Source of the DNA: Hymenobacter piscis
GTDB taxonomy: Bacteria; Bacteroidota; Bacteroidia; Cytophagales; Hymenobacteraceae
Direction: 5' to 3'
Length of the DNA stretch: 64,000 bases
NCBI RefSeq assembly: GCF_018760735.1
Contig: NZ_JAHHZN010000004.1
Location: forward strand, 124,001 to 188,000
Shown: positions 33,870 to 56,450 of the stretch, one piece after another
How positions within the stretch are numbered: the stretch's first letter is position 1
How the letters are laid out: each line of letters starts with the position of its first letter
Program-made: the position numbers and the translations under genes
The notes under the pieces: generated by a model
The model's database searches: none
The model's input: only the letters and a program-made list of their open reading frames with translations
Told to the model about the DNA's origin: nothing

Positions 33870-35045
33870 ATGGCCGTTGCCGCGCCCGCTGCCCCTCCCG
33901 CGCTGCCGCCGGCCCGGCCGCCGGGCTACTACGTGCGCCAGCGCCTGCTGCGCAACATGCCCGCCATGCTCGGGCTGGGCTTTATCGTGCTCTGCACCCT
34001 GGTGGCCGTGCTCGGCTACTGGGTGATGCCCGATAACTCACCCTCGGCCAACAACGGTCTGGTCCAGCTCCAGAAGGAAGCGCCCGGCTTCCGGGCCACC
34101 ATCCTACGCCTGCCCCGACCCGACTCCATCCGCGGGGCCGATAACCCGCTCCTGACCTGGTGGCAGGGCCGGGCTCCGCGCTTCCGCGAGGTGCCCATTG
34201 CCAGCTATGAAATCCGGGGCGACTCGCTCATTACCCGGCCCTACCAGAACCACTCGGCTTTGGCCGACCGGCGCCAGGCCTACGCCCTGAGCGCCGTGGC
34301 CGGCCAGCCCGGTTCGGCCGCCGCGCTGGCCCCGCTGGCTCGCCAGAACATCATTGAGCGCACCTACTGGCTGGGTACCGACAAGGCCGGGCGCGACGAG
34401 CTGAGCCGCCTGCTGCTGGGTACCCGCGTGAGCCTGGGTATCGGGCTGGTGGCGGTGCTGATTTCGGTGCTGCTGGGCATGCTGGTGGGGGCCGTGGCCG
34501 GCTACGTGGGCGGCTGGGTCGATTCGGTGCTGCTGGGGCTGATGACGGTGGTGTGGAGCATTCCGGGCATTATGCTCGTCATTGCCATTTCCCTGGCCCT
34601 CGACAGCAAGGGCGTCTGGACCTCGTTCGTGGCCGTGGGCCTGACCATGTGGGTGGACGTGGCCCGGGTGGTGCGGGGCCAGATGCTGAGTCTGCGCTCG
34701 GCTACCTTCGTGGAAGCCGGCCGGGTGCTGGGCCTGCCCCAGGACCGCCTGATTGCCCGCCACCTGCTGCCCAACATGACCGGCCCGCTGATTGTGCTGG
34801 CCACGAGTAATTTTGCGGCGGCCATTCTGCTGGAAGCCGGTCTGAGTTTCTTAGGTTTGGGGGTGCAGCCCCCGGCGCCCTCCTGGGGCCTGATGGTCAA
34901 CGAGGGATTTCAGCTCCTGGGCACCGCGGCCGGCCTCTGGCTCACGCTGCTGCCCGGCCTGGCCATCAGCCTGCTGGTGCTCAGCTTCAACCTGCTCGGC
35001 AACGGCCTGCGCGACGCCTACGACCCCAAAACGCCGTTGGCGTGA
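33870..35045 (+). CDS. OppC/DppC-type ABC transporter permease
   Basis: 391 residues from ATG 33870. After a Pro/Ala-rich N-terminus and one helix (about 31-52), a long extracytoplasmic loop leads to YWLGTDKAGRDELSRLLLGT and RVSLGIGLVAVLISVLLGML, the family-specific start of the core permease. The EAA-type cytoplasmic loop is EAGRVLGLPQDRLIARHLLP, and GLSFLGLGVQPPAPSWGLMV is diagnostic of DppC/OppC. It should pair with an OppB-type permease, ATPases and a solute-binding protein, none of which is within the window. The peptide substrate is inferred only from family. Confidence 0.92.
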   Translation: MAVAAPAAPPALPPARPPGYYVRQRLLRNMPAMLGLGFIVLCTLVAVLGYWVMPDNSPSANNGLVQLQKEAPGFRATILRLPRPDSIRGADNPLLTWWQGRAPRFREVPIASYEIRGDSLITRPYQNHSALADRRQAYALSAVAGQPGSAAALAPLARQNIIERTYWLGTDKAGRDELSRLLLGTRVSLGIGLVAVLISVLLGMLVGAVAGYVGGWVDSVLLGLMTVVWSIPGIMLVIAISLALDSKGVWTSFVAVGLTMWVDVARVVRGQMLSLRSATFVEAGRVLGLPQDRLIARHLLPNMTGPLIVLATSNFAAAILLEAGLSFLGLGVQPPAPSWGLMVNEGFQLLGTAAGLWLTLLPGLAISLLVLSFNLLGNGLRDAYDPKTPLA

Positions 35046-35217
35046 GGTGAGATGGTGAAATAGTGAGCTGGTGAGTTGATGTTTGGCCGGCGCTGATGGC
35101 AACAGTGTCCTCCTCCAGTCAACCGCTAATTTTCCGTCACCGTTTCTGATTTTACCCTCGCGCCAGCAGCCCATCCGAACATCAAACTCACCATTTCACC
35201 ATCTCACCACTTCACCG
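35042..35217. repeat. Octamer-unit inverted spacer between the permease and GAF-PP2C genes
   Basis: Starting within the permease stop codon, the + strand reads GTGA-containing 8-bp units (GTGAGATG, GTGAAATA, GTGAGCTG, GTGAGTTG) and then ATGTTTGG. The complement returns as CCGAACATCAAACTCACC, ATTTCACC, ATCTCACC and ACTTCACC, ending one base before the next ATG. The middle 90 bp has no clear pairing. Confidence 0.75.
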
Positions 35218-36450
35218 ATGTCGACCATTACTCCCGAGAAACGGTTATTTCTGAAAGAGCGGGAGCTGGGCGCGCTGCTGGAAATCACCCAGGCCATCAA
35301 CCAGGAGCTGCCGGAGGCCGCGCTTTACAAGATTTTTCAGTTTACCCTGCTCGGCCAGCTCAACATCCGGCGGCTGGTGCTTTACGTGAAGGAGGAAGGG
35401 GCATGGGAGTGCACCGTCTCGTTCGGAGCGGGCCTTTCCGACTTCCGCCGCGTGGCGCTGCCCGACAGCATTGCCGACCGCAGCACCGCCGAGCCCTACC
35501 GCCTGCGCGACCTGCCCGGCCTGAGCGCCGCCTGGGACAACCTGGAAATCGTGATTCCGGTGGTGCGCAACGGCGTGGTGCTGGCCCAGGTCATCATCGG
35601 CAACGTGAACGACGACTACGCGGGCGAGGAAGCCACCAAGTTTCTGCAGACGCTGAGCAATATTCTGGTGGGCGCCATCGAGAACCGGCGCCTGGGCCGG
35701 CAGCGGGTGGCTTCGGCGGCCATGCGCAAGGAAATCGAAATTGCCCGCGAGGTGCAGACCATGCTCTTCCCGCGCACCCTGCCCAACGACGCCTGCGTGG
35801 CCGTGCACGCCAGCTACGTGCCCCACACGGCCGTGGGCGGCGACTACTACGACGTGGTGGAGCTCGACGCCGACCGGTTTCTGTTCTGCGTGGCCGACGT
35901 GTCGGGCAAGGGCGTGGCGGCCTCGCTGCTCATGTCCAACTTCCAGGCCGGGCTGCGCACCCTGCTGCGCCAGAAGGTGGACCTGGCCACCGTGGCCCAG
36001 GAGCTCAACAACCTCATCTTCCGCAATGCCGGTGGCGACAAGTTCATCACCGTGTTCTTCGGCCTCTATGACCGCCGCAGCCGGGAACTGAGCTACGTCA
36101 ACGCCGGCCACAACGACCCCATGCTCATCCCCGATGCGGGCCCCGTGCTGCCCCTTAAGGAGGGCACCATCATGCTGGGCGTCATGGACGAGCTGCCCAT
36201 GCTCAAGGTCGGCCGCCTCACGGTGCCCCCGCGCAGCCTGCTGCTGGCCTACACCGACGGCCTGACGGAAGTCTTTGATGCCCAGCAGAACGAGTTCGGG
36301 GAAGAAGGCGTGCTCGAGGTGCTGCGCCACACCCGCTACGCCCCTCTGCGTACCGTGCACAGCGAGCTGCTGCGCGAAATCACGGCCTTCGACCGCTCCG
36401 GCTCCGGCTTCGCCGACGACGTGACCATCCTCAGCTGCCGGTTTAAGTGA
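35218..36450 (+). CDS. GAF-like sensor with PP2C/SpoIIE phosphatase domain
   Basis: 410 residues from ATG 35218; an earlier frame start would read through the repeat. Residues about 10-170 form a GAF-like sensor (LGALLEITQAINQELPEAAL, LEIVIPVVRNGVVLAQVIIG). A linker helix with EIEIAREVQTMLFPRTLP precedes the PP2C domain: VGGDYYDVVELDADRFLFCV (metal-binding Asp pair), ADVSGKGVAASLLMSNF, YVNAGHNDPMLI, LLLAYTDGLTEVFD and GFADDVTILSCRF. Proteins of this build dephosphorylate anti-sigma antagonists in partner-switching pathways. No RsbW/RsbV genes are adjacent. The stop codon lies at the edge of an inverted repeat. Confidence 0.93.
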   Translation: MSTITPEKRLFLKERELGALLEITQAINQELPEAALYKIFQFTLLGQLNIRRLVLYVKEEGAWECTVSFGAGLSDFRRVALPDSIADRSTAEPYRLRDLPGLSAAWDNLEIVIPVVRNGVVLAQVIIGNVNDDYAGEEATKFLQTLSNILVGAIENRRLGRQRVASAAMRKEIEIAREVQTMLFPRTLPNDACVAVHASYVPHTAVGGDYYDVVELDADRFLFCVADVSGKGVAASLLMSNFQAGLRTLLRQKVDLATVAQELNNLIFRNAGGDKFITVFFGLYDRRSRELSYVNAGHNDPMLIPDAGPVLPLKEGTIMLGVMDELPMLKVGRLTVPPRSLLLAYTDGLTEVFDAQQNEFGEEGVLEVLRHTRYAPLRTVHSELLREITAFDRSGSGFADDVTILSCRFK

Positions 36451-36452
36451 GA

Positions 36453-36571
36453 AGTGAAATAGTGAGGTGGTGAAATGGTGAGTTGATGTTCGGTAGGTCC
36501 TGACTGCGCCACTTGCGCCAAACAGGATGCCCGAACATCAACTCACCATTTCACCACCTCACTATTTCACT
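36453..36571. repeat. Inverted repeat with 41-bp perfect arms overlapping a gene end
   Basis: The left arm (36453-36493) is built of 8-bp units starting GTGAAATA, GTGAGGTG, GTGAAATG, GTGAGTTG and then ATGTTCGG. The right arm (36531-36571) is its exact complement over all 41 bp. The right arm supplies the last codons and stop of the O-antigen ligase gene on the minus strand; the left arm begins 2 bp after the PP2C gene stop. Confidence 0.92.
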
Positions 36572-38019
36572 GTATTCTCCTCCCGCACCCAGGTGCCCAC
36601 GCGGATGAGCAGGGCCAGGTTGATGAAAAAGAAGGAGCCGATTTTGTCCACTTCGACCAGCTCATTGAGCAGCAGGTGGAACACGATGATGACGAAGCTC
36701 AGGCCGCTGGCCAGCAACACGTAGCGGGGCGGGGTACCGGGCCGGGTGCGGTGGTAGAGGGTTTCGATGGTGATAAAGGCCGCGCCCACCAGCGCGACAA
36801 ACAGCAGCATGCCCGGAAAGCCCTGCTCGGCCAGCAGCAGCAGGAAGTAGTTGTGGGTAGTAGAGCGTTCGGGGTTGTCACTCACGTAGGTACGGAAGCT
36901 GCGCACCGTGTAGCGCTTGTATTCGGGGTAGAAGGTGCTCGGGCCGCTGCCCACCAGGGGCTTGTCGGCGGCCATGCGGCTGGCGGCCACCCAGCGGTAC
37001 ACCCGCTCCATGCCCGACACGTCTTCCAGCTTGTAGGTGGCCTCCAGGTGCTTTTCGAAGTTCTCGCCGTTGAAAATCGTTTTCTCGAAATCCGGGGCGT
37101 AGAGCATGAAGTTGTTCTGGCTCAGAAAGTAGGTAGCGCCCGCCAGCGCGGCCACCAGCACGCCCGCCAGCAGCAGGCGCGTCTGCCGCAGCCGGATAAC
37201 TCCGTAATACAGCCCGGCTACCGGCACGGAGAGCACCGAGGCCCGGGTGTAGGAGGTGAGCAGGCCCAGCAGCATAAGGCCCAGGGCCAGACCCCAGGCC
37301 AGCTTCGGCAGGCCCCGGGTGCTGCGCAGGCGGTAGAAGGCAAACGGCAGCAGCAACGCCAGCACCGTGGCGTAAATCACGTGGTTGCGGTAGAAGTCGT
37401 GCAAGGCCCACTGCACCTCGTTGAAGGCGAAGCCCCGGCTGGCGTGCCGGGCCACAATCACCACCACCGTCACGCAGGTCCCGGCCGTGTAGAGCGCGGC
37501 CACCCGCCACACGTCGGCCGGGCGGCGTAGCAGCAGCAGCGTGCCCAGCACGAAGGGCATCAGGTACCAGCCCTTGGCCAGCAGAAACTTAACGGATTTG
37601 GTGCTGTCAACCGAAAACAGGCTCGACACTACGGCCCAGAACAGCGTGAGCAGCAGCAGGACAATAAGCGGGTGCTGCAACTCCCGGGCGGCCAAACGGT
37701 GCCGGCCGATGAGCAGGCTGGCCCCCACGCAGCCGGTGAGCACCAGCATCAGGGGCTCGGAGGGTACGTCGAGGCTCAGGCTGCCCACTCCAATTTCGCG
37801 GGCGAAGGGCAGGGTCAGAAAGAACAGGAAGTACACCAGTCGCCAGTCGGTGAGCAGCAGCAGCCCGCCCAGCACCAGTACCACCGGCAGCAGGAGCACC
37901 ACCGAAGACGTAACAGCCAGCAGCGTGCCGCCCAGCAGCAGCAGGCCCATTACGCCTACAAACACGCGCTGCGCCGGTTCCCGGGGCAGCCAGCGGCGCA
38001 GCTGCTCCACTACGCTCAC
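36562..38019 (-). CDS. O-antigen ligase-family membrane protein
   Basis: 485 residues from GTG 38019, which overlaps the stop of the upstream Wzz-like gene by GTGA. Ten or more hydrophobic helices alternate with short loops, and one large periplasmic loop (about residues 290-390) contains GMERVYRWVAASRMAADKPL, VGSGPSTFYPEY and TTHNYFLLLLAEQGFPGMLL, the Wzy_C/WaaL signature (RxxxW...GxGxxxF...HNxxL). It probably joins or polymerises lipid-linked glycan in the outer part of the inner membrane. The C-terminal Val-Lys and the stop are encoded inside an inverted repeat arm. Confidence 0.92.
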   Translation of the reverse strand: MSVVEQLRRWLPREPAQRVFVGVMGLLLLGGTLLAVTSSVVLLLPVVLVLGGLLLLTDWRLVYFLFFLTLPFAREIGVGSLSLDVPSEPLMLVLTGCVGASLLIGRHRLAARELQHPLIVLLLLTLFWAVVSSLFSVDSTKSVKFLLAKGWYLMPFVLGTLLLLRRPADVWRVAALYTAGTCVTVVVIVARHASRGFAFNEVQWALHDFYRNHVIYATVLALLLPFAFYRLRSTRGLPKLAWGLALGLMLLGLLTSYTRASVLSVPVAGLYYGVIRLRQTRLLLAGVLVAALAGATYFLSQNNFMLYAPDFEKTIFNGENFEKHLEATYKLEDVSGMERVYRWVAASRMAADKPLVGSGPSTFYPEYKRYTVRSFRTYVSDNPERSTTHNYFLLLLAEQGFPGMLLFVALVGAAFITIETLYHRTRPGTPPRYVLLASGLSFVIIVFHLLLNELVEVDKIGSFFFINLALLIRVGTWVREENTVK

Positions 38020-40777: not shown

Positions 40778-40807
40778 AGCCCCCAAGCCCCCAAGCCCCC
40801 AAGCCCC
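40778..40807 (+). repeat. Unpaired octamer tract (AAGCCCCC units) before a GT4 gene
   Basis: Four 8-bp units of AAGCCCCC type end directly at the ATG of the next gene. The same units form arms at 3250-3303 and 63571-63609, but here I find no inverted partner in the spacer. Confidence 0.7.
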
Positions 40808-41944
40808 ATGCACATTGCCGTTAACGTCCGCTTTCTGCTGCCCGGCGATAAGCTGGAGGGCATCGGGCGCTTTACCCTCGAAACCGTGCGGGAGCTGGTG
40901 CGCCAGCAGCCGGAGCATACGTTCCACTTCCTTTTTGATCGGGCGTTTGATGAGCGGTACCGGCTGGGTCCCAACGTAGTGCCCCACGTGCTGAGTCCGC
41001 CGGCCCGGCACCCGCTGCTGTGGGTGGCCTGGTTCGAGGGGGCCGTGGCCCGCTGGCTGGCCCGCCACCGTCCGGCCGTTTTTCTAAGCCCCGACGGCTT
41101 CACCACGCTGCGCACCCGGGTCCCCCGCGTGACGGTGCTCCACGACCTGGCCTTCGAGCATTTTCCCCGGGACGTGGACCGGCTGGTGCTGGCCTACTAC
41201 CGCTACTTCACACCCCGTTTCGCCCGGGCCTCGGCGCGGCTGGTGGCCGTGTCGAAAGCCACCAGGCAGGACATCACGGCCCGCTACGGCACCGACCCGG
41301 CCAAAATCAGCGTGGTGTACAATGCCGTGGATGCCCACTTCCGGCCCCGGCCGCCGCAGGTGCAGCAGGCGACCCGGGAGCGGTACGCAGCGGGCCGGGC
41401 GTACTTTCTGTTTGTGGGCGCCCTGCAGCCGCGCAAGAATCTGGTCAACCTGCTCCGGGCCTTCGACGCGTTCAAGACGGCCACCAACGCCCCCACGAAG
41501 CTGCTGGTGGTGGGGCGCACGGCCTGGAAAGCCGGTCCCATCTTCGACGTGTACCAGCAGCTTACCCACCGCCACGACGTGCACCTGACCGGCCGCGTTA
41601 CCGATGTCGAGTTGGTGGAGCTTTACGCCGCGGCCCTGGCCACCTGCTACGTGCCCTATTTTGAGGGTTTCGGCATTCCCATCATTGAGGCCCAGGCCAG
41701 CGGCTCGCCCGTCATCACGGCCAACTGCAGCTCCCTGCCCGAAGTAGCCGGCGGCGCGGCCTGCCTCGTCGACCCGTTTGCGGTGGACTCCATCAGCGCC
41801 GGCCTCACCCGGGTGCATGAGTCGGCCGATTACCGCCGGGAATTAGTGGAACGTGGCCACCGCAACGTGCAGCGCTTCAGCTGGGCCGAAAGCGCCCGGC
41901 AGCTCTGGCAGGAAATCGAGCGGGCGGCTGAAATGCGTGAATGA
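40808..41944 (+). CDS. Family 4 glycosyltransferase (GT-B fold)
   Basis: 378 residues from ATG 40808. HIAVNVRFLLPGDKLEGIGR is typical of mannosyl/rhamnosyl-type GT4 enzymes. RVTVLHDLAFEHFPRDVDRL, LVAVSKATRQDITARYGTDP, YFLFVGALQPRKNLVNLLRA and the nucleotide-sugar motif YFEGFGIPIIEAQASGSPVI (E-x7-E) are all present. It is a cytoplasmic enzyme that adds a sugar to a lipid-linked chain. The final codons (MRE, stop) are translated from an octamer repeat arm. Confidence 0.93.
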   Translation: MHIAVNVRFLLPGDKLEGIGRFTLETVRELVRQQPEHTFHFLFDRAFDERYRLGPNVVPHVLSPPARHPLLWVAWFEGAVARWLARHRPAVFLSPDGFTTLRTRVPRVTVLHDLAFEHFPRDVDRLVLAYYRYFTPRFARASARLVAVSKATRQDITARYGTDPAKISVVYNAVDAHFRPRPPQVQQATRERYAAGRAYFLFVGALQPRKNLVNLLRAFDAFKTATNAPTKLLVVGRTAWKAGPIFDVYQQLTHRHDVHLTGRVTDVELVELYAAALATCYVPYFEGFGIPIIEAQASGSPVITANCSSLPEVAGGAACLVDPFAVDSISAGLTRVHESADYRRELVERGHRNVQRFSWAESARQLWQEIERAAEMRE

Positions 41945-42154
41945 GTGAAGTGGGGAATGAGTGAAGTGGGAAGTGCGTGAATAAGTGAACGTCCTGCTGA
42001 GCGCAGCCGTAGCCGGAGGCGAAACCGACGCAGCTCTACCACCGCCATAGTAATCCTGCCGGCTGCAACAAAAACAGAAGAGCTGCTTCAACTTCGCTCA
42101 GCATGACGTTCGTACTTTTACTCACTACTCACTACTCACTACTCACTACTCAGT
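41937..42154. repeat. Inverted spacer with octamer arm, REP-like core and heptamer arm
   Basis: Left: 8-bp units such as GAGTGAAG, TGGGGAAT and AAGTGAAC from inside the GT4 stop, then CGTCCTGCTGAGCG. Right: CGCTCAGCATGACG, a spacer, then 7-bp ACTCACT units up to the next start. Inner segments GACGCAGCTCT and AGAGCTGCTTC also pair. The core resembles REP family 2 (GTCATCCTGAGCGAAG). Confidence 0.7.
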
Positions 42155-42784
42155 TTGCACTTACACCGCCTGCCGGGGCTGGTGCGGGGGCTGTTTCCGG
42201 ACTGCCTCTGGAGCCTGCCCGCCACCGACCCGCCTACGCTTTACCTGACCTTCGACGACGGCCCGATTCCGGAGGAAACGCCCTTCGTGCTGGAGCAGCT
42301 GGCCCGCCACGGGGCGCGGGGTACGTTTTTCTGCGTGGGCGAGAACCTGGAGCGCCACCCCGACGTGGCCCGGCGGGTGCTGGCCGAAGGGCACCGGCTG
42401 GCCAACCACACCTACCACCACCTCAGCGGCTGGCGCCACGCCCGCCCCACCTACCTGGCCGATGTAGCCCGCTGCCAGACGGTGCTCCAAGAACTGCAGC
42501 CCGAGGCGCGGCCCCTGCTGCGCCCGCCCTACGGCCGCCTCACGCCCGGTCTGGCCCGCGCCCTGCACCCTACTCATCAGGTGGTGATGTGGGACCTGCT
42601 CACCTGCGACTATGACCGGGATTACGCCCCCGCCGAGTGCCTGGCCACCGCCATCCGGCTCACCCGGCCCGGCAGCATCGTTGTGTTCCACGACAGCCTC
42701 AAGGCCAGCCCCAACCTGCGCTACGTGCTGCCCCGCTACCTCGACCACTTCGCCGGTTTAGGCTACCGGTTCGCAGCGCTGTAA
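42155..42784 (+). CDS. NodB-type polysaccharide deacetylase
   Basis: 209 residues from TTG 42155; no ATG or GTG in this frame lies before the catalytic motif, and the preceding bases are repeat units. The NodB domain shows motif 1 TFDDGP (Asp34, Asp35), motif 2 HTYHH (His85, His89), RPPYGRLTPGLARAL and the C-terminal VVFHDSLKASPNL with a catalytic His. Such enzymes remove N- or O-acetyl groups from surface polysaccharide or peptidoglycan. It lies among glycosyltransferase genes, so modification of the exported glycan is likely. There is no signal peptide from this start, though one could have been lost. Confidence 0.85.
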   Translation: MHLHRLPGLVRGLFPDCLWSLPATDPPTLYLTFDDGPIPEETPFVLEQLARHGARGTFFCVGENLERHPDVARRVLAEGHRLANHTYHHLSGWRHARPTYLADVARCQTVLQELQPEARPLLRPPYGRLTPGLARALHPTHQVVMWDLLTCDYDRDYAPAECLATAIRLTRPGSIVVFHDSLKASPNLRYVLPRYLDHFAGLGYRFAAL

Positions 42785-42992
42785 GGCGGGGGAGTTGTTG
42801 GTTGTTAGTTGCCAGTTGCCAGTTGTCAGTTGCCAATTGTCAGAAAGAACGTCATTCCGAGCGGAGCGAGGAATCTCGTGTGCTGACGTTGAACTGCCAT
42901 GACAACATCAGCACGCGAGATTCCTCGCTTCACTGGGACTGACGTACTTTCTGACAACTAACAACTAACAACTAACAACCGACAACCACAAC
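42785..42992. repeat. Heptamer arms around a REP family 1 hairpin
   Basis: From the deacetylase stop to the next ATG the whole spacer is an inverted element. GTTGTTA, GTTGCCA and GTTGTCA 7-bp units are followed by CAGAAAGAACGTCATTCCGA at 42841; the complement returns as GACTGACGTACTTTCTG and then CTAACAA 7-bp units. The core GGAATCTCGTGTGCTGACGT pairs with the GATTCCTC side and matches the one at 12478-12594. Confidence 0.88.
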
Positions 42993-44308: not shown

Positions 44309-46585
44309 ATGTTCCCATCTTATTCCCGGGCCGCCCTGCTGGCGGCCGCCCTGTTCTGCGCCTCCTGTCAGGCCTCCTCCTCTTCCTCCGAAACTGCGGC
44401 GGCCGACTCGCCCGCCGCCGCGGACGTCAACCGCCAACAGGCGCTGCTGGCCAATGAGGCCAAGATTGACGCGCTGCTGGCCAAGCTGACGCTGGAGGAG
44501 AAAATTGCCATGATTCACGCCAATTCCTCCTTCACCTCGGGCGGCGTACCCCGCCTCAACATCCCGGAGCTGGTTACCTCCGACGGCCCCCACGGGGTGC
44601 GCGTGGAGCACGGCCGCGACTGGGAGGTGGACAAGGACGTGAACGACGCCGGCACTTACCTGCCCACCGGCAACACCCTGGCTTCCACCTGGAACCCCGA
44701 GCTGGGCTACGCCTTCGGGGCAGTGCTGGGCAGCGAGGCCGCCTTCCGGGGCAAGGACGTAATTCTGGGCCCCGGCATCAACATCATCCGCACGCCCCTC
44801 AACGGCCGCAACTTCGAGTACCTGAGCGAGGACCCCTACCTGGTGTCGAAGATGGTGGTGGGCTACATCCGCGGGGTGCAGGACCAGGGCGTGTCGGCCT
44901 GCGTGAAGCACTTCGCGGCCAACAACCAGGAGGAGCACCGCAACGACATCGACGTGAACATGAGCGAGCGGGCGTTGCGCGAAATCTATCTGCCCGGCTT
45001 CCAGGCGGCCGTGCAGCAAGGCGGCGTGAACACGCTCATGGGCTCCTACAACAAGTTCCGGGGCCAGTACGCCACCCACAACGCCTACCTGATGAACGAC
45101 ATCCTGAAGGGTGAATGGGGGTTCAAAGGGTTGGTTATCAGTGACTGGGGCTCGGTGCACGACACCCAGCAGGGCCTGCGCAACGGCACCGACCTGGAAA
45201 TGGGCACCGACCTGTCGCTGATGTACAATACCGTCGACCAGACGGCCAGTGCCGGCATGCCGGCCCTCACCCCGACCCTCTACGACCGGTTCTTCTTCGG
45301 CACCGCCGCCCTGGAAGCCGTGAAGAAAGACCCCGCCCTGGTGCCGATGCTCGACGACAAGGTGCGCCGCATCCTGCGCGTGATGTACGCCACCAACATG
45401 CTGGACGGGGCCAAGCGCAAGGCCGGTGCCTACAACGCGGCTGAGCACCAGGCCACGGCCCTTAAGGTGGCCGAGGAAGGCATTGTGCTGCTCAAGAACG
45501 AGGGCAACCTGCTGCCCCTGAGCAAATCCACCAAGACCTTCGCCGTTATCGGAGCCAACGCCACCCGGCCCAACTCCATGGGCGGGGGCAGCTCCCAGGT
45601 GAAGGCCAAGTACGAAATTACGCCCCTCATGGGCCTGCAAAAGGCCCTCGGCCCCAGCGCCCGGATCAACTACGTGCCCGGCTACACCATTGCCCGGGGC
45701 CAGCAGGCCGACGCCCAGCAGATTGCCCAGGCCGTAGCTGCCGCCAAGGCCGCCGACGTGACCATCCTGGTGGGCGGCACCACCCACGGCTACGATTACA
45801 AGGTGTGGAGCGACAACGCCTACGATGCCGAGGGCTACGACAAACCCGACATGAAGTTGCCCTTCGGCCAGGATGAGCTGATCAGCGCTGTGTTGGCGGC
45901 TCAGCCCAACACCGTGGTGGTGCTCCTGGGCGGCGGGGCCGTCGATGTATCGGCCTGGGCTGGCAAGGCCCGCGGCATTGTGGAGGCCTGGTACCCGGGC
46001 ATGGAGGGCGGCACCGCCCTGGCCCACGTGCTGCTGGGCGACGTGAACCCCTCGGGCAAGCTGCCCTTCACCTTCCCCGTGAAGCTCGAAGACGCGCCCG
46101 CCCACAAGCTCGGCGAGTACCCCAGCACCCCCGGCAACCCCCTCCAGCAGACGTATAAGGACGATATCTGGGTGGGTTACCGCTACTTCGACACTTACAA
46201 GGTGGCCCCCCAGTTTGCCTTTGGCCACGGCCTGAGCTACACCAGCTTCGAGTACGGCAAGCTGAACGTGAAGCCCGGCTCCCGCAACGCCACCGTCACG
46301 CTCGCGGTGCGCAACACCGGCAAGGTGGCCGGGGCCGAAGTAGTTCAGCTCTACGTCCACGACGACCAGGCCAGCCTCAAGCGCCCCGAGAAGGAGCTCA
46401 AGGCCTTCCAGAAGGTCTTTCTTAAGCCCGGCGAATCCAAAACCGTTACCCTCACCCTCGGTCCCGACGCCTTCCGCTACTACGATGAGGGCCAGAAGCA
46501 GTGGATTCTGGAGCCCGGCCGCTTCACCCTGCTCGCCGGCTCCTCCAGCCGCGACATCCGCCAGCAGGGCACCGTGGAGCTGTAG
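44309..46585 (+). CDS. bglX: Family 3 glycoside hydrolase (beta-glucosidase), lipoprotein
   Basis: 758 residues from ATG 44309. MFPSYSRAALLAAALFCASC gives a lipobox Cys at residue 20 followed by a Ser-rich linker, so it is probably a lipoprotein. The N-terminal GH3 TIM barrel contains PELVTSDGPHGVRVEHGRDW, LGPGINIIRTPLNGRNFEYL, SEDPYLVSKMVVGYIRGVQD, CVKHFAANNQEEHRNDIDV and the nucleophile Asp279 in GLVISDWGSVHDT. The C-terminal GH3 domain (VLLKNEGNLLPLSK, GQDELISAV) and a fibronectin III-like domain (FAFGHGLSYTSFEYGKLNVK) follow. It should release glucose from beta-glucosides in the periplasm or at the surface. Confidence 0.95.
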   Translation: MFPSYSRAALLAAALFCASCQASSSSSETAAADSPAAADVNRQQALLANEAKIDALLAKLTLEEKIAMIHANSSFTSGGVPRLNIPELVTSDGPHGVRVEHGRDWEVDKDVNDAGTYLPTGNTLASTWNPELGYAFGAVLGSEAAFRGKDVILGPGINIIRTPLNGRNFEYLSEDPYLVSKMVVGYIRGVQDQGVSACVKHFAANNQEEHRNDIDVNMSERALREIYLPGFQAAVQQGGVNTLMGSYNKFRGQYATHNAYLMNDILKGEWGFKGLVISDWGSVHDTQQGLRNGTDLEMGTDLSLMYNTVDQTASAGMPALTPTLYDRFFFGTAALEAVKKDPALVPMLDDKVRRILRVMYATNMLDGAKRKAGAYNAAEHQATALKVAEEGIVLLKNEGNLLPLSKSTKTFAVIGANATRPNSMGGGSSQVKAKYEITPLMGLQKALGPSARINYVPGYTIARGQQADAQQIAQAVAAAKAADVTILVGGTTHGYDYKVWSDNAYDAEGYDKPDMKLPFGQDELISAVLAAQPNTVVVLLGGGAVDVSAWAGKARGIVEAWYPGMEGGTALAHVLLGDVNPSGKLPFTFPVKLEDAPAHKLGEYPSTPGNPLQQTYKDDIWVGYRYFDTYKVAPQFAFGHGLSYTSFEYGKLNVKPGSRNATVTLAVRNTGKVAGAEVVQLYVHDDQASLKRPEKELKAFQKVFLKPGESKTVTLTLGPDAFRYYDEGQKQWILEPGRFTLLAGSSSRDIRQQGTVEL

Positions 46586-46599
46586 GGTTTGAGCGACTC

Positions 46600-46780
46600 A
46601 GGAACCGGGCAACCGGGGGACTGAATTGATATGCTGTCATCCTGAGCGAAGCGAAGGACCTTGTCCCGCCAAAACGAGTAGTCTTGACTATTCCGGCGGA
46701 ATAAGGTCCTTCGCTCCGCTCAGGATGACAGTATCTTTGTGGCCCAATCCCCCAGTTCCTAAGTCCCCCAGTCCCTCACA
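46600..46780. repeat. Spacer with octamer arms around a REP family 2 hairpin
   Basis: CTGTCATCCTGAGCGAAGCG (from 46634) pairs with the complement ending GCTCAGGATGACAG at 46731, including AAGGACCTTGTCCCGCC with GGCGGAATAAGGTCCTT. Outside, GACTCAGGAACCGGG-type units on the left face CCCCCAGTTCCTAAGTCCC on the right, which ends at the tatD ATG. TATCTTTG starts right after the hairpin. Confidence 0.85.
46732..46739 (+). promoter_or_regulatory. Candidate -7 element TATCTTTG of tatD
   Basis: An exact TAnnTTTG match that abuts the right foot of the REP hairpin, 41 bp before the tatD ATG. The hairpin occupies the region where a -33 element would be. Confidence 0.45.
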
Positions 46781-47560
46781 ATGACCTTCTCCGATTCCCA
46801 CGCCCACGTGTACTCGCCCCAGTTCAAGCCCGACCAGGACGAGATGCTGCAGCGGGCCTATGAACACGGCATCGAAACCATCTTCATGCCCAACATCGAC
46901 CACGACAGCATCGAGGCCATGCTCGACGTGGAGGCGCGCTACCCCAGCCAATGCTTTGCCATGATGGGCCTGCATCCCTGCCACGTGACGCGCAACCTGC
47001 AACGGGAGCTGTACGAGGTGGAGGAATGGCTCAGCCGCCGGCCCTTCGCGGCGGTGGGGGAGTGCGGCATTGATCTGTACTGGGACAAAACCCTGCTCGC
47101 CGAGCAGCAGGAGGCCCTGCGGGTGCAGGTGGCGCTGGCCAAACAGCACCACCTGCCCCTGGTGCTGCACACCCGCGACGCCTTCCGCGAAACAGCCGAC
47201 ATCATCGCCGAGGCCCAGGACGGCACCCTGCGGGGCGTGTTCCACTGCTTCTCGGGCACGCCCGCCGAGGCCGAGGAGGTCGTGCGCCTGGGCTTCAAGC
47301 TGGGCATCGGGGGCGTGGCCACGTTCAAAAACGGCGGCCTTGATAAGGTGCTGCCCGGCCTGGGGCTGGAGCATGTGCTGCTGGAAACCGACTGCCCCTA
47401 CCTGGCCCCCGTGCCCCACCGCGGCAAGCGCAACGAGCCCGCCTACGTGCCCCTGGTGGCCCGCCGGGTAGCCGAGCTGCTGGATATTTCGGTGGAAGAA
47501 GTAGCCCAGGCCACTACCCGCAACACGCTGGCCCTGTTTGGAGAAGCGGGGGTTAGGTAA
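46781..47560 (+). CDS. tatD: TatD-family metal-dependent DNase
   Basis: 259 residues from ATG 46781. TatD/YcfH proteins are two-metal amidohydrolase-fold nucleases. Ligands are His7 and His9 (SDSHAHVYS), the Glu in AAVGECGIDLYWD, His in LPLVLHTRDAF, His in GVFHCFSGTPAEAEEVVRLG and the final Asp in VLLETDCPYLAPVPHRGKRN. The length is normal. Its final codons (Val-Arg-stop, GTTAGGTAA) lie inside the left arm of the next repeat. Confidence 0.95.
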   Translation: MTFSDSHAHVYSPQFKPDQDEMLQRAYEHGIETIFMPNIDHDSIEAMLDVEARYPSQCFAMMGLHPCHVTRNLQRELYEVEEWLSRRPFAAVGECGIDLYWDKTLLAEQQEALRVQVALAKQHHLPLVLHTRDAFRETADIIAEAQDGTLRGVFHCFSGTPAEAEEVVRLGFKLGIGGVATFKNGGLDKVLPGLGLEHVLLETDCPYLAPVPHRGKRNEPAYVPLVARRVAELLDISVEEVAQATTRNTLALFGEAGVR

Positions 47561-47806
47561 CAGGTGATGGGGTGAGGAGGTGAGGAGGTGAGGAAAGAAC
47601 TGTCATCCTGAGCGGAGCGAAGGATCTTATCACGTTGCAACTAGTCGTTGGTGCGGCCGTTTCGGCGTGATAGGATCCTTCGCCACATGCTCAGGATGAC
47701 AGTTCTTTCCTCACCTCCTCACCCCATCACCTCCTCACCCTATCACCTCCTCACCCCATCACCTCCTCACCCCATCACCTCCTCACCCCATCACCTGTTA
47801 CCTTAG
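47551..47806. repeat. Stop-to-start inverted element with expanded octamers and REP family 2 core
   Basis: The left arm starts inside the tatD stop (TTAGGTAACAGGTGATGG), runs through GTGAGGAG units to AGGAAAGAACTGTCATCCTG (47591 on). The right arm (GCTCAGGATGACAGTTCTTT, from 47689) is an exact complement for 23 bp and continues with TCACCTCC/TCACCCCA units, expanded to about ten copies, ending in CCATCACCTGTTACCTTAG. The two outer ends therefore match each other, while unit number differs. Confidence 0.92.
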
Positions 47807-47833
47807 CAGCTCCACCCCAACCCCTGTCCGACC

Positions 47834-49055: not shown

Positions 49056-49057
49056 CA

Positions 49058-49092
49058 AGAAAGCCCGTTTCTGAGTCAGAAACGGGCTTTCT
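49058..49092 (+). terminator. Hairpin terminator after tRNA-Ser
   Basis: AGAAAGCCCGTTTCTG, loop AGT, CAGAAACGGGCTTTCT: a perfect 16-bp stem starting 3 nt after the tRNA, followed by GTTTCTTC. Confidence 0.88.
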
Positions 49093-51153: not shown

Positions 51154-51236
51154 GGAAGATAGAAACCAGGTAGCGGAACGGGCGGGGAAGATAGGGAGCT
51201 TCGGTTGTATTACGATGGTTTAAAAGCTGGTTGCGT

Positions 51237-51264: not shown

Positions 51265-51392
51265 CCCAGTACAGTATCTGAAGACTACCGTACGACTCCC
51301 GGCGGAAACGCTGAGAATTTGCTGCTGAAAGCAGCCAAAGGACTTTTCTCGCGTATGGTCGTTACAGAGTGCTACCCTCTTTCCATACCCGC

Positions 51393-51869: not shown

Positions 51870-52016
51870 GCCATCTGCACTGATCATCTGCCTTGGGCGG
51901 GCAACTGCTGTTACGCCCCGTGTTGCCGCCGGCCGCTGGCACTTCCAACGGTGGCCGACAACGCGGGACACGGCGCGAGCGTACGTGTGAAGTACCGTGA
52001 TTCGGCCCCGGCTGTC

Positions 52017-52034
52017 CCGCCCGGTACCGGGCGG
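52017..52034. repeat. 18-bp perfect palindrome upstream of the aldehyde oxidoreductase operon
   Basis: CCGCCCGGTACCGGGCGG is perfectly symmetrical and lies 65 bp before the first gene. It could be an operator, but GC-rich palindromes arise easily in this genome. Confidence 0.35.
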
Positions 52035-52098
52035 AGCCAAACCATCAGTCCGGCACCAGGTTGCTTGCTTTCACCCCCTCATTATTCCTGCCCCTTCC

Positions 52099-52734
52099 AT
52101 GACCGAACCTATCACCCCCGATACTCCCGCCGGCGGCCCGGGCAAGCCTGCCAACGACGGCTCCCGCCGCACTTTCATGAAGCAGGCTGGCGGCATCCTG
52201 GGGCTGGCCCTGGCCCCTCCTTTCCTCAGCCAGGCCGAGCGCCTGACAGCCCTTTCCCGCAAAGTGGAAGGGGTTTCGGCCCTGAGCCTGAAGGTGAATG
52301 GCACCGTCCGTACCATTCAGGCCGAACCCCGCGTCACCCTGCTCGATGCCCTGCGTGAGTACCTCGACCTGACCGGCTCCAAGAAAGGCTGCGACCACGG
52401 CCAGTGCGGGGCCTGCACGGTGCTGGTGGATGGCCGCCGCGTGAACAGCTGCCTGACCCTGGCCGTGATGACTCAGGGCAAGGAAATTACCACCATCGAG
52501 GGCCTGGCCAAGGGCGAGGAGCTGCACCCCATGCAGGCCGCCTTCCTCAAGCACGATGGGTTCCAGTGCGGCTACTGCACCCCCGGCCAGATTATGTCGG
52601 GCGTGGCCTGCGTGCAGGAAGGGCACGCCGGCTCCGAGGCCGAGGTGCGCGAGTGGATGAGCGGCAACCTGTGCCGCTGCAGTGCCTACCCCAACATCAC
52701 GGCCGCCATTCTGGAGGCGGCCAAGAGTAGTTAG
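52099..52734 (+). CDS. paoA: Aldehyde oxidoreductase [2Fe-2S] subunit with Tat signal (PaoA-like)
   Basis: 211 residues from ATG 52099. [20 protein letters not shown] is a twin-arginine signal, so the complex is probably exported folded to the periplasm, as for E. coli PaoABC. The first [2Fe-2S] cluster motif is [20 protein letters not shown] with a further Cys, and the second is [17 protein letters not shown] with [11 protein letters not shown]. It carries electrons from the molybdenum centre. The order small, FAD, large subunit then XdhC-like chaperone is that of paoABCD. Confidence 0.92.
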
Positions 52735-52887
52735 TATGGAGTACTGGGTATTGAGTCGATGACTGGAATGCCGTGGAGGCGAAATCGATTCTTCGACGCG
52801 AAATACCCTACTACTGACGTCAGCCTGCTAGCCGAAGCAGCCCGACGATTCATCAATACGAAGTACTCACTACTCAACACTGCACAG
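52735..52887. repeat. Heptamer-arm inverted spacer between paoA and paoB
   Basis: Directly at the paoA stop (TTAGTATGG) 7-bp units GTATGGA, GTACTGG, GTATTGA, GTCGATG run inward. CATCAAT, ACGAAGT, ACTCACT, ACTCAAC units run outward to the paoB ATG. The middle (GGCGAAATCGATTCTTCGAC) is weakly self-complementary. It splits an operon whose genes are otherwise expected to be tightly linked. Confidence 0.75.
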
Positions 52888-53871
52888 ATGAATAACTTTT
52901 CCTACTACCAGGCCGACAAGGCCAAGGACGCCACCTCCGCCAAGCGGGCCGATAAATCGGCCGCTTTTATTGCCGGCGGCACCACCCTGCTGGATCTGAT
53001 GAAGCTCAACGTGGAAAACCACGACCAGCTCATCGACGTGAACACGCTGCCCTTCCGGGGCGTGGAAATGACCAAGAACGGCCTGCGCATCGGGGCCCTG
53101 GAGCGCATGAGCGACGTGGGCGAGCACCCGCTGGTGGTGAAGAACTTCCCAGCCGTGTCGCAGTCGCTGCTGCTGGCGGCCTCGGCCCAGCTGCGCAACA
53201 TGGCCAGCATCGGGGGCAACATTCTGCAGCGCACCCGCTGCGGCTACTTCCGCGACACGGCGTTTCCCTGCAACAAGCGCGAGCCCGGCACTGGCTGCCC
53301 CGCCCTCGAGGGTGACCACCGCAACCTGGCCATCCTGGGCACGAGCGAGGCCTGCATTGCCACCAGCTACCCCGGCGACCTGTCAGTGGCCCTCACCGCC
53401 CTCGACGCCGTGCTGACCCTGGAAAACGCCAAGGGCAAGCAACGCGAGGTACCCATCACCAGGTTCTACCTGCTGCCCGGCTCCACGCCTCAGAAGGAAA
53501 CGGTGCTCGAAGACGATGAGCTGCTAGTGGCCGTGACCATTCCGCAGACCGTGGCGGCCCAGAAGTCTTTGTACCTGAAAGTGCGCGAGCGGACTTCCTA
53601 CGCCTACGCGCTGGCTTCGGCCGCCGTGGGCCTGGAGGTGCAGGGCGGCATTATCCGGGCGGCCAAAGTGGCCCTGGGGGGCGTGGGCACCCAGCCCTGG
53701 CGCTCCCCCGAGGCCGAAAAGATGCTGGTGGGTAAAGCTCCCTCCGAGGCCGTGTTCCGGGCTGCCGCCGAAGCGGCCCTGCGCGGGGCCAAGCCCCGGG
53801 AGCACAATGCCTTCAAGGTGGAAATGGCCCAAAATACGCTGGTGCGGGCTTTAAGTGAAGTGGCCGCCTAA
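52888..53871 (+). CDS. paoB: Aldehyde oxidoreductase FAD subunit (PaoB-like)
   Basis: 327 residues from ATG 52888. The FAD-binding PCMH-type domain contains AAFIAGGTTLLDLMKLNVEN and NMASIGGNILQRTRCGYFRD. The loop with four cysteines (TRCGYFRD, FPCNKREPG, GTGCPAL and EACIA) matches the extra [4Fe-4S]-binding insertion of E. coli PaoB. The C-terminal CO-dehydrogenase-flavoprotein-like domain (SYAYALASAAVGLEVQGGII, LRGAKPREHNAFKVEMAQNT) is complete. Confidence 0.93.
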   Translation: MNNFSYYQADKAKDATSAKRADKSAAFIAGGTTLLDLMKLNVENHDQLIDVNTLPFRGVEMTKNGLRIGALERMSDVGEHPLVVKNFPAVSQSLLLAASAQLRNMASIGGNILQRTRCGYFRDTAFPCNKREPGTGCPALEGDHRNLAILGTSEACIATSYPGDLSVALTALDAVLTLENAKGKQREVPITRFYLLPGSTPQKETVLEDDELLVAVTIPQTVAAQKSLYLKVRERTSYAYALASAAVGLEVQGGIIRAAKVALGGVGTQPWRSPEAEKMLVGKAPSEAVFRAAAEAALRGAKPREHNAFKVEMAQNTLVRALSEVAA

Positions 53872-53875
53872 CTTA

Positions 53876-53958
53876 TTTCTCGCAGAGGGCCGCAGAAGGA
53901 GGCGCAGCGGTTGACCAGAAAACCTGCTTTTGCCTCCGCGAATCTCTCTGCGAGAAAA
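53876..53958. repeat. Inverted repeat between paoB and paoC
   Basis: TTTCTCGCAGAG (53876-53887) pairs with CTCTGCGAGAAA (53946-53957). Inside, GGAGGCGCAG-type and GCCTCCGCG segments also pair partly. It starts 4 bp after the paoB stop and ends 16 bp before the paoC ATG. It is a further sequence type among the spacer elements. Confidence 0.75.
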
Positions 53959-53973
53959 CAACTACCGAATCAA

Positions 53974-56304
53974 ATGGAAACCAATCAGACAAAGAACGCG
54001 CCCACCAACGTGGTCGGCAAGCCCCTGGACCGCGTCGATGGCCCGGCCAAGGTCACCGGGGCGGCCCGCTACTCGGCCGAGATAAGCGTGCCCGGCACAG
54101 TGTACGGGGTGCTCAAAACCAGCACCATCGCCAAAGGCCGCATTACCAGCATCGATACGTCCCGGGCCGCCAAGGAGCCGGGCATCATCACCATCCTCAC
54201 CCACGAAAACCTGCCCAAGCCGGCCAAAACGCCCCAGCAGGTGGAGAAGTGGCGGGCCGCCCAGAGCTACTTGCCCATGCAGGATGCCCAGGTGCAGTAC
54301 GCCGGCCAGCCGGTGGCCCTGGTGGTGGCCGACACGCTGGAGCGCGCCACCCAGGCGGCCGCCCTTATCAACGTCACGTACCAGGCCGAGGCACCCATCG
54401 ACTCCTTCCACGACCCCAAAGCCGAGCTGTTCGACCCGCAGAAAATCCAGCAGGGCAAGAAGGACAGCCACGTGGTGCGCGGCAACCCCCAGCAGGCCTT
54501 CGACGGGGCGGCCATCAGGCACGAGGCCACCTACGTGCACGCTATCAACCACCACAGCCCCATGGAGCCCGCCGCCACACTGGCCGTGTGGGAGGGCGCC
54601 GATAAGCTGACGGTGTACGAATCTAGCCAGAACGTGACCATGCACCAGGGCGCGCTGGCCGATTTGCTGGGCATGCCCCGGGAGCAGATCCGGGTGGTAA
54701 CCAAGTACATCGGGGGCGGCTTCGGCTGCAAGGGCTCGTTCTGGCCCCACACCATCCTGACGGTGCTGGCCGCCAAGGCCGTGAACCGGCCGGTGAAGCT
54801 GGCCCTCACCCGCCAGCAGATGTTTACCGGCGTCGGCCACCGCGAAGACCAGGAGCAGACCCTGAAAATGGGCACTACCGCCGACGGCAAGCTGGTGTCT
54901 CTGGTACACACCAAGCGCGCCACGACTTCACCCTGGGACAACTACACCGAGTCGAACGGCAAGATTCTGGACATGCTCTACGCCTGCCCCAACTACTCGA
55001 CCACCTACGAGCTGGCCCGGGCCAACGTAATGACGTCGGTGTGGATGCGTGCCCCCGGCGAGGCCCCCGGCTCCTTCGCCCTGGAAAGCTCCCTCGACGA
55101 CGTGGCCAACCAGTTGGGCCTGGATCCGCTCGAAATCCGGTTGCGCAACTACGCCGACTATGACCACAGCAACGGCAAGCCCTGGAGCAGCAAGAGCCTG
55201 AAGCAGTGCTACGCCCGCGGGGCCGAGTTGTTCGGCTGGGATAAGCGCCAGGCCAAGCCCGGCCAGAACCGTCGGGGCCGTCTGTTGGTGGGCCACGGCA
55301 TGGCCACGGCCAGCTACCCGGTGCACAGCTCCCAGGGCACGGCCCGCGTGCGCCTCTTCGCCGACGGCCACGCCGTAGTGGAAGCCGGCGCCACCGACCT
55401 GGGTACCGGTACCTACACCGTCATGACCCAGGTTTCGGCCGATGCCCTGGGCCTGGCACCCGAGAAAATCCGCTTCGAGTTGGGCGACACGCGCCTGCCC
55501 ACGGCCCCCGGCTCGGGCGGCTCGGTGGCGGCCGGCACGGTAGCTTCCTCCATCATGGCCGCCGCCGAGGATGTGTGGGACAAGGTGGTGAAGATGGCAG
55601 TGGCCGACAAGAAGTCGCCCCTCTACAAAGCCAAGCCTGCCGATGTGAAGGTGGAGCTGGGCCGTATGTTCCTGACCAAGGACCCCCAGAAGGGGGAAAC
55701 CCTGGTGGCTGCCTTGGTGCGCAGCGGCCAGCCCGACATTGAGGGCAGCGGCACCGGCAAGTACGGGGCGGGGTACGAGGAAAAGAACTTCGGCCAGAAC
55801 GGAGCCGACCCCAACAACGACAGCAAGGAAAAGAAAACCGGCGGCCACTCCATGCACTCGTTCGGGGCTCACTTCTGCGAGGTGGAAGTAGACCCCGACC
55901 TGGGCACGGTGCGCATCACCCGCTGGGTGGGCGTGCACGGGGCGGGCACGGTGCTCAACCTGAAAACTGCCACCAGCCAGATGATTGGCGGGGCCATCTA
56001 CGGCATTGGGGCGGCCCTGATGGAGGAAACCCACCGCGACGCCAGTTTTGCCCGTTACACCAACGCTGATTTGGCCGGCTACCACATCCCCGTCAACGCC
56101 GACATCCCCGAAATCAAGGTGGAATTCGTGCCCGAGTCCGACCCCTATATCAACTACCTGGGAGTAAAGGGCATTGGCGAGCTGGGCATGGTGGGCGTGG
56201 CCGCGGCCGTGGGCAACGCCATCTTCAACGCCACCGGCCGCCGCCTGCGTCACCTACCCATCACCCCCGACAAGGTGCTGGAAGCCCTGCGCCAGCCAGC
56301 ATAG
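53974..56304 (+). CDS. paoC: Aldehyde oxidoreductase molybdenum-binding subunit (PaoC-like)
   Basis: 776 residues from ATG 53974. It is the large subunit that binds the molybdenum cofactor and oxidises aldehydes. KPLDRVDGPAKVTGAARYSA opens the domain. Cofactor-binding stretches are YIGGGFGCKGSFWPHTILTV, WMRAPGEAPGSFALESSLDD and GATDLGTGTYTVMTQVSADA with GSGGSVAAGTVAS. The catalytic Glu is in KGIGELGMVGVAAAVGNAIF. Length fits the PaoC/YagR and isoquinoline oxidoreductase group rather than xanthine dehydrogenases of the XdhB type. Oxidation of aromatic or aliphatic aldehydes in the periplasm is likely. Confidence 0.94.
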   Translation: METNQTKNAPTNVVGKPLDRVDGPAKVTGAARYSAEISVPGTVYGVLKTSTIAKGRITSIDTSRAAKEPGIITILTHENLPKPAKTPQQVEKWRAAQSYLPMQDAQVQYAGQPVALVVADTLERATQAAALINVTYQAEAPIDSFHDPKAELFDPQKIQQGKKDSHVVRGNPQQAFDGAAIRHEATYVHAINHHSPMEPAATLAVWEGADKLTVYESSQNVTMHQGALADLLGMPREQIRVVTKYIGGGFGCKGSFWPHTILTVLAAKAVNRPVKLALTRQQMFTGVGHREDQEQTLKMGTTADGKLVSLVHTKRATTSPWDNYTESNGKILDMLYACPNYSTTYELARANVMTSVWMRAPGEAPGSFALESSLDDVANQLGLDPLEIRLRNYADYDHSNGKPWSSKSLKQCYARGAELFGWDKRQAKPGQNRRGRLLVGHGMATASYPVHSSQGTARVRLFADGHAVVEAGATDLGTGTYTVMTQVSADALGLAPEKIRFELGDTRLPTAPGSGGSVAAGTVASSIMAAAEDVWDKVVKMAVADKKSPLYKAKPADVKVELGRMFLTKDPQKGETLVAALVRSGQPDIEGSGTGKYGAGYEEKNFGQNGADPNNDSKEKKTGGHSMHSFGAHFCEVEVDPDLGTVRITRWVGVHGAGTVLNLKTATSQMIGGAIYGIGAALMEETHRDASFARYTNADLAGYHIPVNADIPEIKVEFVPESDPYINYLGVKGIGELGMVGVAAAVGNAIFNATGRRLRHLPITPDKVLEALRQPA

Positions 56305-56314
56305 TCTTCACACT

Positions 56315-56438
56315 GTTAGCTGAGAGCCAGTAGCTCAGAGCTTTGGTTCAAGGGGCGTATTTATCAGAATACTCGTCTTCTGCATCTTGGCTGAACGTTA
56401 TCAGAACGAAAGCTAACAGCTACTGGCTCTCAGCTAAC
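56315..56438. repeat. AGCT-type heptamer inverted spacer between paoC and xdhC
   Basis: GTTAGCTGAGAGCCAGTAGC plus T (56315-56335) returns as the exact complement at 56418-56438. The right side reads as 7-bp units AGCTAAC, AGCTACT, GGCTCTC, AGCTAAC, AGCTTCA up to near the next ATG. The inner GAAAGC and GCTTTGG ends also pair loosely. Confidence 0.85.
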
Positions 56439-56450
56439 AGCTTCATAAAT

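Follow-up and report, generated by a model that had tools for sequence, protein, structure and literature searches.

Palindromes with 7- and 8-bp arrays in the spacers

Why do the spacers of a Hymenobacter genome carry tandem units of 7 or 8 bp on one side and the same units, inverted, on the other? The question arises from a 64-kb window (the whole stretch of DNA analysed here, part of contig C4) of Hymenobacter piscis, the host, whose genome of 4.88 Mb is a draft of 64 contigs. Its spacers hold what can be described as composite intergenic palindromes, in which a hairpin core is flanked on both sides by mirrored arrays of units of 7 or 8 bp. The period-7/8 palindrome pattern is real and far above chance; in most cases one arm is a copy of the other, arms at shared sites turn over rapidly from species to species, and nothing in their symmetry points to selection at the RNA level.

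The window and positions 1-400000 of contig C1 (464 kb in all) formed an exploration sample, and 400 kb from parts of contigs C2 and C3, unused for exploration, a replicate (pooled, 864 kb). Every spacer of 30-500 bp was scored by its best local inverted repeat, a score of at least 40 being called strong; genes were called with a home-made caller, and some boundaries and contexts are wrong (e.g., the start of the open reading frame (ORF) at 42155). Strong inverted repeats occupied 133 of the 575 spacers pooled, 68 of 310 in the exploration sample (maximum of 930 shuffled spacers, 25) and 65 of 265 in the replicate (shuffle maximum, 29). When the outer arm was matched to itself at lags 7 and 8 (p<=0.01), 55 of the 112 testable palindromes were periodic, against 1, 2 and 4 at the control lag pairs 5/6, 9/10 and 11/12. 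The exploration sample contributed 30 of 59 (33 on a re-run with fresh shuffles; controls 0, 1, 1) and the replicate 25 of 53 (controls 1, 1, 3), so that the pattern is genome-wide. Of the lags from 2 to 15, only 7, 8 and 14 gave positive aggregate self-similarity of the arms, all others being negative. The units are diverse (AGTTGnn, GTGAnnnn, TTTTTAA and AGCTnnn are examples), and the 5' arm, read from outside in the 5' to 3' direction, was G-rich in all 55 periodic elements (30/30 and 25/25), compared with 21 of 38 non-periodic palindromes of the exploration sample. Periodic arms also lay closer to genes than other palindromes did: at most 12 bp separated them from the left gene in 42/55 cases (others, 31/78; Fisher p 4e-5) and from the right gene in 31/55 (others, 21/78; Fisher p 1e-3).

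In the DNA sampled, the density of paired 7/8 arrays per 100 kb was 5.7 for the host (49 in 864 kb), against 3.2 across four close relatives and 1.0 in the genomes G014-G016; 62 kb from three further Hymenobacter had none, Pontibacter/Adhaeribacter reached 1.2 and the remaining Bacteroidota 0.3. With control periods of 10/11, the whole survey gave one match. Outside the genus, whole genomes were searched for the GTGA octamer pattern only, and other units were surveyed on sampled loci.

Mirrored unit order and one-sided arrays

The unit order of the left arm was permuted and its match to the right arm compared (p<=0.05; the test has low power for very uniform arrays). Order was mirrored beyond permutation in 35 of the 55 periodic elements (20/30 in the exploration sample, 15/25 in the replicate), and within the window in three of eight (at 35046, 36451 and 56305). 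Judged by the order of the units, in the elements that passed one arm copies the other, as opposed to both having been built independently from one unit.

A second search started from arrays and demanded no partner. Among the 94 arrays that it recovered in 502 spacers of the host and its relatives, the inverted partner was strong for 34, weak for 17 and absent for 43; the partner score exceeded the array's own 95% control in 60 of 94 (random partners, mean 12.3; mean 95% point, 17.6). The architecture, which the original prediction had called constant, is therefore better described as frequent. One-sided arrays at gene boundaries were found on the start side in 24 cases versus 10 on the stop side.

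Orthologous spacers

Four relatives keep the gene order well across the greater part of the window, and around TatD a further two do so; the host TatD protein shares 92% identity with its counterpart in Hymenobacter rubripertinctus and 90% with the one in H. actinosclerus. At several orthologous spacers an element is present in several species with differing cores and arms. In the ortholog table, spacers longer than 500 bp or shorter than 30 bp were dropped, as were 15 of 59 palindromic spacers without two 18-nt outer arms before similarity was counted. For the 44 two-armed elements that were left, similarity between the left and the inverted right arm was 0.72, a figure inflated by the choice of the elements as palindromes, which counts against reading it as proof of copying; the informative figure is the 0.27 between the same arm in two species (unrelated arms, 0.16). 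Orthologous spacers often retain an element whose arm units differ between species yet remain complementary within each. With this caveat of selection, the mirrored order in both samples and the joint turnover of the arms uphold the claim that arms are copied as matched inverted pairs.

The spacer between genes g45 and g46 illustrates the turnover. The host and G001 have a related CGTCATTC core there, flanked by AGTTGnn heptamers in one and GAGATnT heptamers in the other, each of them mirrored; G065 and G004 retain an CGTCATTC-type or GAATGACGTTCTT remnant with the arrays absent, G058 and L032 carry other cores, and the spacer of L034 measures 9 bp. In the TatD|Asn spacer, a start-side motif (TACCTTAG or TACCTTCG) is conserved in the five closest relatives. 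The left end in the host, GGTTAGGTAACAGGTGATGGGG, contains the TatD stop codon, shares 20 of 22 positions with the inverted right end and occurs in none of these five relatives, which looks like copying from right to left. It is the one suggestive case of a reverse-complement copy made in a single event, the closest genomes compared being ~91% identical at TatD. As a separate observation, L032 has a TAGGGGCGGGGCTTGTCCCCGCCC hairpin family (spacers ~5977-6200 and ~10770-11060) at two sites that hold REP-like (repetitive extragenic palindrome) cores in the host.

RNA level or DNA level

A long, perfect hairpin in a spacer is usually taken for an RNA signal, and the original prediction had offered a role in transcript ends or mRNA stability. 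A pairing maintained in RNA is expected to show more G-U than A-C mismatches on the transcribed strand, as intrinsic terminators do. We therefore counted G-U against A-C mismatches on the sense strand of same-direction palindromes, those with T-runs excluded, and took the T-run terminators from these sets for comparison. Convergent (29 v 20) and divergent (16 v 12) palindromes, for which no one strand is the sense strand, were set aside, and the G014-G016 set (elements 3 v 6, terminators 3 v 2) was too small to enter the pooled count. The elements gave 76 v 82 in the host and relatives (86 v 87 with T-runs kept) and 29 v 40 in the replicate, pooled 105 v 122; the corresponding terminator counts were 27 v 2 and 19 v 7, in total 46 v 9 (Fisher p 3.6e-7 against the elements). 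Since the elements lack the G-U excess that terminators have, RNA pairing is probably not the force that maintains the complementarity of the arms, and the balance of mismatches suggests a symmetry made or kept at the DNA level.

Hairpins selected in RNA, for transcript ends, RNase III processing or mRNA stability, would account for the distribution of strong palindromes, which are common in convergent (52/98) and rare in divergent spacers (10/110; same-direction, 71/367), although ordinary terminators are included in these counts; the periodic elements are less skewed by context (33/367 same-direction, 16/98 convergent, 6/110 divergent). Moreover, TAnnTTTG, which we take to be the Bacteroidota promoter motif, precedes the start in 12 of 106 spacers with elements and 20 of 229 without, and this equal frequency means that both arms need not share one transcript. 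With the wobble counts added, we consider RNA-level selection of the arms very improbable; an effect of the elements on RNA is another matter and may exist.

The strand-neutral mismatches (105 v 122) and the occurrence of elements in every gene context, convergent and divergent included, would equally suit a palindrome selected as DNA, for instance as a cruciform or as the site of a dimeric protein related to the nucleoid, supercoiling or replication. Against this, families aside, no sequence is common to the arms of different elements; the units turn over fast, 43 of the 94 arrays are partnerless and the GTGA form is absent from 50 of 120 Hymenobacter genomes. We regard this explanation as improbable, if less so than selection on RNA. 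If the symmetry does belong to the DNA level, complementarity and compensatory change by themselves say little in such genomes about whether an RNA is functional, and the ~280 sites expected in each genome (by extrapolation from the 49 in 864 kb) could be used for watching template switching in nature.

Hairpin cores and transposases

Several kinds of hairpin lie inside the arms, often facing CGTC-type REP-like pairs or a recurrent GTGAGTTTGATGTTC...GAACATCAAACTCAC core. The REP-like core TGTCATCCTGAGCGnAGCGAAGGA has 92 forward and 90 reverse matches in the host (at most 2 mismatches; control, none), and among the matches listed, this core or its sister CGTCATTCCGAGCGnAGCGAGGAAT mostly forms facing pairs. 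CGTC-tagged REPs are defined by a CGTC/TGTC tag, a stem of 8-9 bp, a loop of 4-5 nt and a CCA tail, mostly in head-to-head dimers (PMC3733652). The CGTCATTCC and TGTCATCC cores have the tag and an AT opening the stem, and the head-to-head arrangement is that of the facing pairs just described; by eye, however, the fold differs, with 5 pairs, a tandem G.A mismatch, 2 pairs, a 3-nt loop and a CTC or CTT tail.

The GTGAGTTTGATGTTC...GAACATCAAACTCAC core carries GTGA octamer arms. In 24 matched GTGA stretches (some of them loose or overlapping, and two from G065), the halves of one stretch agreed at 0.593, compared with a mean of 0.471 and a maximum of 0.542 in 500 trials of re-paired halves. The paired GTGA-octamer pattern has 90 overlapping matches in the host and occurs in 70 of 120 Hymenobacter genomes (host included) with 0-149 overlapping matches each, the reversed control giving 0 throughout; outside the genus it was found in 3 of 391 Bacteroidota genomes (5/395 matched overall, two of them in the genus), where the control pattern gave 4 matches in one other genome, G498. 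These counts also bear on the possibility that the inverted pairs are chimaeras of assembly: the host assembly is a draft of many contigs, but the pairs recur across the 70 genomes, among them the one-contig G015 (44 matches), and we regard an artefact as practically negligible.

A REP-type transposase had been named as a possible agent. The host has two Y1_Tnp genes, whose flanking palindromes differ from the cores of the elements. One, L161 (G000:C5, ~236279-236620), has GTAGCCCAGGGCTTCAGCCCTGGGAC palindromes on its flanks and looks like a REP-associated tyrosine transposase (RAYT) with its own GTAG-tagged REP family, unlike the CGTC-type cores; the other, L162 (G000:C7, ~124071-124286), is more distant and flanked by CTCGGCTATGCCGAGTGAG-type palindromes. 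Neither has the elements' own repeat beside it, as a cognate mobiliser would. Thirty-seven of the 120 genomes have no Y1_Tnp match, and among those listed, G014, G015, G030, G050 and G051 have 33-54 GTGA-pair matches. Because several element-rich genomes lack it, a Y1 transposase is not required for having the elements today, and dependence on one was rejected. A loss of SbcCD as the reason for palindrome tolerance was likewise rejected, SbcD being present in 120 of 120 genomes; the SbcC-like frame of the host (1158 residues) has two matches below the cut-off.

Small mobile elements of the REP or MITE (miniature inverted-repeat transposable element) type might still have inserted with their arms in place, the differences between species then being successive insertions at tolerant sites. 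The copy numbers of the GTGA-armed and REP-like cores are what such insertions would produce, as are the differing cores at orthologous sites; the different arms around a shared related core at g45|g46, the element-rich genomes without Y1_Tnp and the unrelated palindromes beside the host's own transposase genes are not. On balance we consider this explanation unlikely, though with a better claim than selection on the palindrome as DNA.

Stop codons, gene boundaries and a proposed mechanism

Periods of 7 and 8 are not divisible by three, so that a single stop codon in the unit runs through all reading frames, an argument already made by MacGregor for TAACTGA repeats (PMC4679880). Stops in all three frames were found in 60% of the periodic 5' arms versus 16% of shuffles in the exploration sample and in 56% versus 13% in the replicate (non-periodic arms, 8% versus 4%). 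The inward strand of boundary arrays is rich in G in 64 of 72 cases; where same-direction spacers lack arrays, that strand is G-rich ahead of starts in 164/207 (the sense strand being G-poor there) and neutral after stops (100/207). Avoidance of start codons by start-side arrays is slight (0.76 v 1.03 per 100 nt). From these figures we infer a filter by which arrays that grow into gene ends would survive if translation stops at once, and three-frame stops offer one simple reason why non-triplet periods are tolerated there.

We propose that slippage creates the arrays and that template switching at the hairpin core, in line with the hairpin-templated repair that the original prediction held possible, copies them in mirror image, REP-like cores serving as seeds and coding ends as bounds. 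Replication slippage would multiply the units on one side; the core would let the nascent strand fold back and take the opposite arm as template; and the array of one flank would in this way be rewritten on the other as its reverse complement. Growth would halt where coding sequence would suffer, so that the ends settle near stop and start codons, and C-poor, stop-rich units on the inward strand would survive best because periods 7 and 8 put one stop through three frames. The elements would then be tolerated by-products of DNA copying and not regulatory RNAs. In favour of the proposal we count the mirrored unit order, the lack of a wobble bias, the arm similarities, the inverted start-side motif with the TatD stop codon, the closeness of the arms to genes, the three-frame stops, the one-sided arrays and the g45|g46 spacer, where two species surround a related core with mirrored heptamers that differ and two others have no arrays.

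Besides the inflated similarity of the arms, several observations weigh against it. No single copying event was seen, the closest genomes at TatD being ~91% identical. The 154 ortholog comparisons comprise 27 with both sides conserved, 8 left-only, 5 right-only and 114 with neither, and from 8 versus 5 no general direction of copying emerges, despite hints from one-sided arrays and base composition. The mirror test was failed by 20 of the 55 elements, and by five of the eight in the window. Many copies of the GTGA family include its arms, which is what mobile units would show. Three-frame stops exceed shuffles in the 3' arm as well (20% v 1%, read on the top strand), and no more than 6 of the 10 one-sided stop-side arrays obey the G-rich rule, so that the survival filter is not clean. 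Weighing both sides, we see the mechanism as evenly poised between right and wrong. That the process continues without a transposase, arrays at one boundary being rewritten in mirror order at the other through the hairpin core and palindromes being renewed genome-wide within no limit but coding sequence, is a serious possibility that we would nevertheless sooner doubt than assert; if true, it makes Hymenobacter spacers a natural laboratory for template switching.

Elements of the window

Ten spacers had been named in the original prediction, and nine of them exceed both shuffle maxima (25 and 29) in their best inverted-repeat score, the tenth, 52735-52887, falling short. They are given here with the one-sided array; palindromes have no strand.

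3194-3302 (spacer 3177-3303), palindrome with G-rich octamer arms; score 36; right arm coding in the minus-strand ORF 3251-3697.
35046-35208 (spacer 35042-35217), palindrome with GTGAnnnn octamer arms at 35046-35100 and 35162-35208, between same-direction genes; score 47, 42/46 pairs, period 8, mirror p 0.042.
36453-36571, palindrome with perfect 41-bp GTGAnnnn octamer arms and a GATGTTC...GAACATC core, between convergent genes, stop to stop; score 82, 41/41 pairs, mirror p 0.003.
40778-40807, plus strand, one-sided octamer array AGCCCCCA ending at the ATG at 40808; no inverted partner (partner score 7).
41942-42152 (spacer 41937-42154), palindrome with a REP-like core and unlike outer units, GTGAATGA/GTGAAGTGGG on the left and TACTCAC on the right; score 45, array partner score 23, mirror p 0.08.
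42801-42992 (spacer 42785-42992), palindrome with AGTTGnn heptamer arms flanking the REP-like pair CGTCATTCC; score 94, 74/90 pairs, period 7, mirror p 0.47.
46584-46776 (spacer 46600-46780), REP-like pair TGTCATCCTGAGCGAAGCGAAGGACC with weakly matched outer arms; score 64, mirror p 0.56.
47549-47817 (spacer 47551-47806), palindrome with a REP-like pair and AGGTGAGG / TCACCTCCTCACCCCA arms, the right array longer; score 110; its outermost left end is the inverted copy of the start-side TTACCTTAG.
52733-52874 (spacer 52735-52887), weak inverted arms; score 24, below both shuffle maxima.
56313-56440 (spacer 56315-56438), palindrome with AGCTnnn heptamer arms; score 54, 33/37 pairs, mirror p 0.013.
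63467-63610 (spacer 63466-63609), palindrome with TAGGGTCTTGGGGACT octamer-type arms on the start side of a minus-strand gene; score 51, 30/33 pairs, period 8, mirror p 0.09.

The stop-to-start layout ascribed to these spacers is not general: 36453-36571 runs from stop to stop, 63466-63609 lies, by our gene calls, at a start beside a divergent gene, and one arm of 3177-3303 is translated. In the last case the right-arm octamer array is read as a C-terminal extension of ORF 3251-3697(-), ~17 residues beyond the point at which three relatives end or diverge; by this comparison, the extension is repeat growth into a gene.

An Rfam scan of the window returned tRNA only. A perfect 17-bp hairpin (49058-49092) directly follows tRNA-Ser(gga) and is probably its terminator. 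Directly 3' of the REP-like core before TatD (46586-46780) stands a promoter-like TATCTTTG that is conserved in relatives, and a promoter may by now be bounded on its upstream side by the repeat. Another palindrome family, GTAGAGACGCAATATTTTGCGTCTCGTCGTTG, lies at 58395-58702 and recurs at several spacers of the host and its relatives, including the orthologous g43|g44 and g55|g56.

Comparison with known systems

Tandem heptamers in spacers are familiar from the STRR sequences of cyanobacteria. The original prediction knew of no inverted pairs of such arrays; in fact, inverted heptamer pairs were published for Xanthomonas in 2015, where GGGAATC arrays include 70 and 75 cases of two convergent arrays on opposite strands (PMC4692102). 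As in Hymenobacter, these are intergenic, have facing G-rich strands, usually lie near a neighbouring ORF and vary in length and sequence between species. The 5' arm, G-rich in every periodic element here, reproduces that convergent arrangement, with periods of 7 and 8 instead of 7 alone. Xanthomonas has one unit per genome (GGGAnTn) and a G-quadruplex reading, whereas Hymenobacter has many units, two periods, mirrored order and REP-like cores, and neither a single genome-wide unit nor G-tracts of three or more are needed. For Nostoc, the same paper gives only a few inverted heptamer pairs (PMC4692102).

TAACTGA direct repeats occur in Beggiatoaceae, Cyanobacteria and some Bacteroidetes (PMC4679880). 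They resemble the present arrays as heptamers at gene boundaries, with three-frame stops limiting the overlap with gene ends and with one-sided arrays before starts; they differ in being mostly direct repeats of one heptamer, with a single inverted case in the main genome. CGTC-tagged REPs share with our cores the CGTC/TGTC start, the AT at the start of the stem and the head-to-head pairs, and some REP dimers sit within longer palindromes (Anabaena variabilis, Halothiobacillus); stem, loop and tail differ, and the available portion of that work does not describe its outer palindromes as 7/8-bp arrays (PMC3733652).

A description of such elements in Hymenobacter was not found in the literature (open-licence papers only). 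What seems to be new is that the units are so diverse, that their order is mirrored, that matched arms turn over fast and that the symmetry lies at the DNA level without constraint at the RNA level. A parallel to the proposed mechanism is the template-switch mutation, in which copying of the reverse complement can create or repair a stem in one event; it has been described for RNA genes (PMC8794818), where the structure is selected as well.

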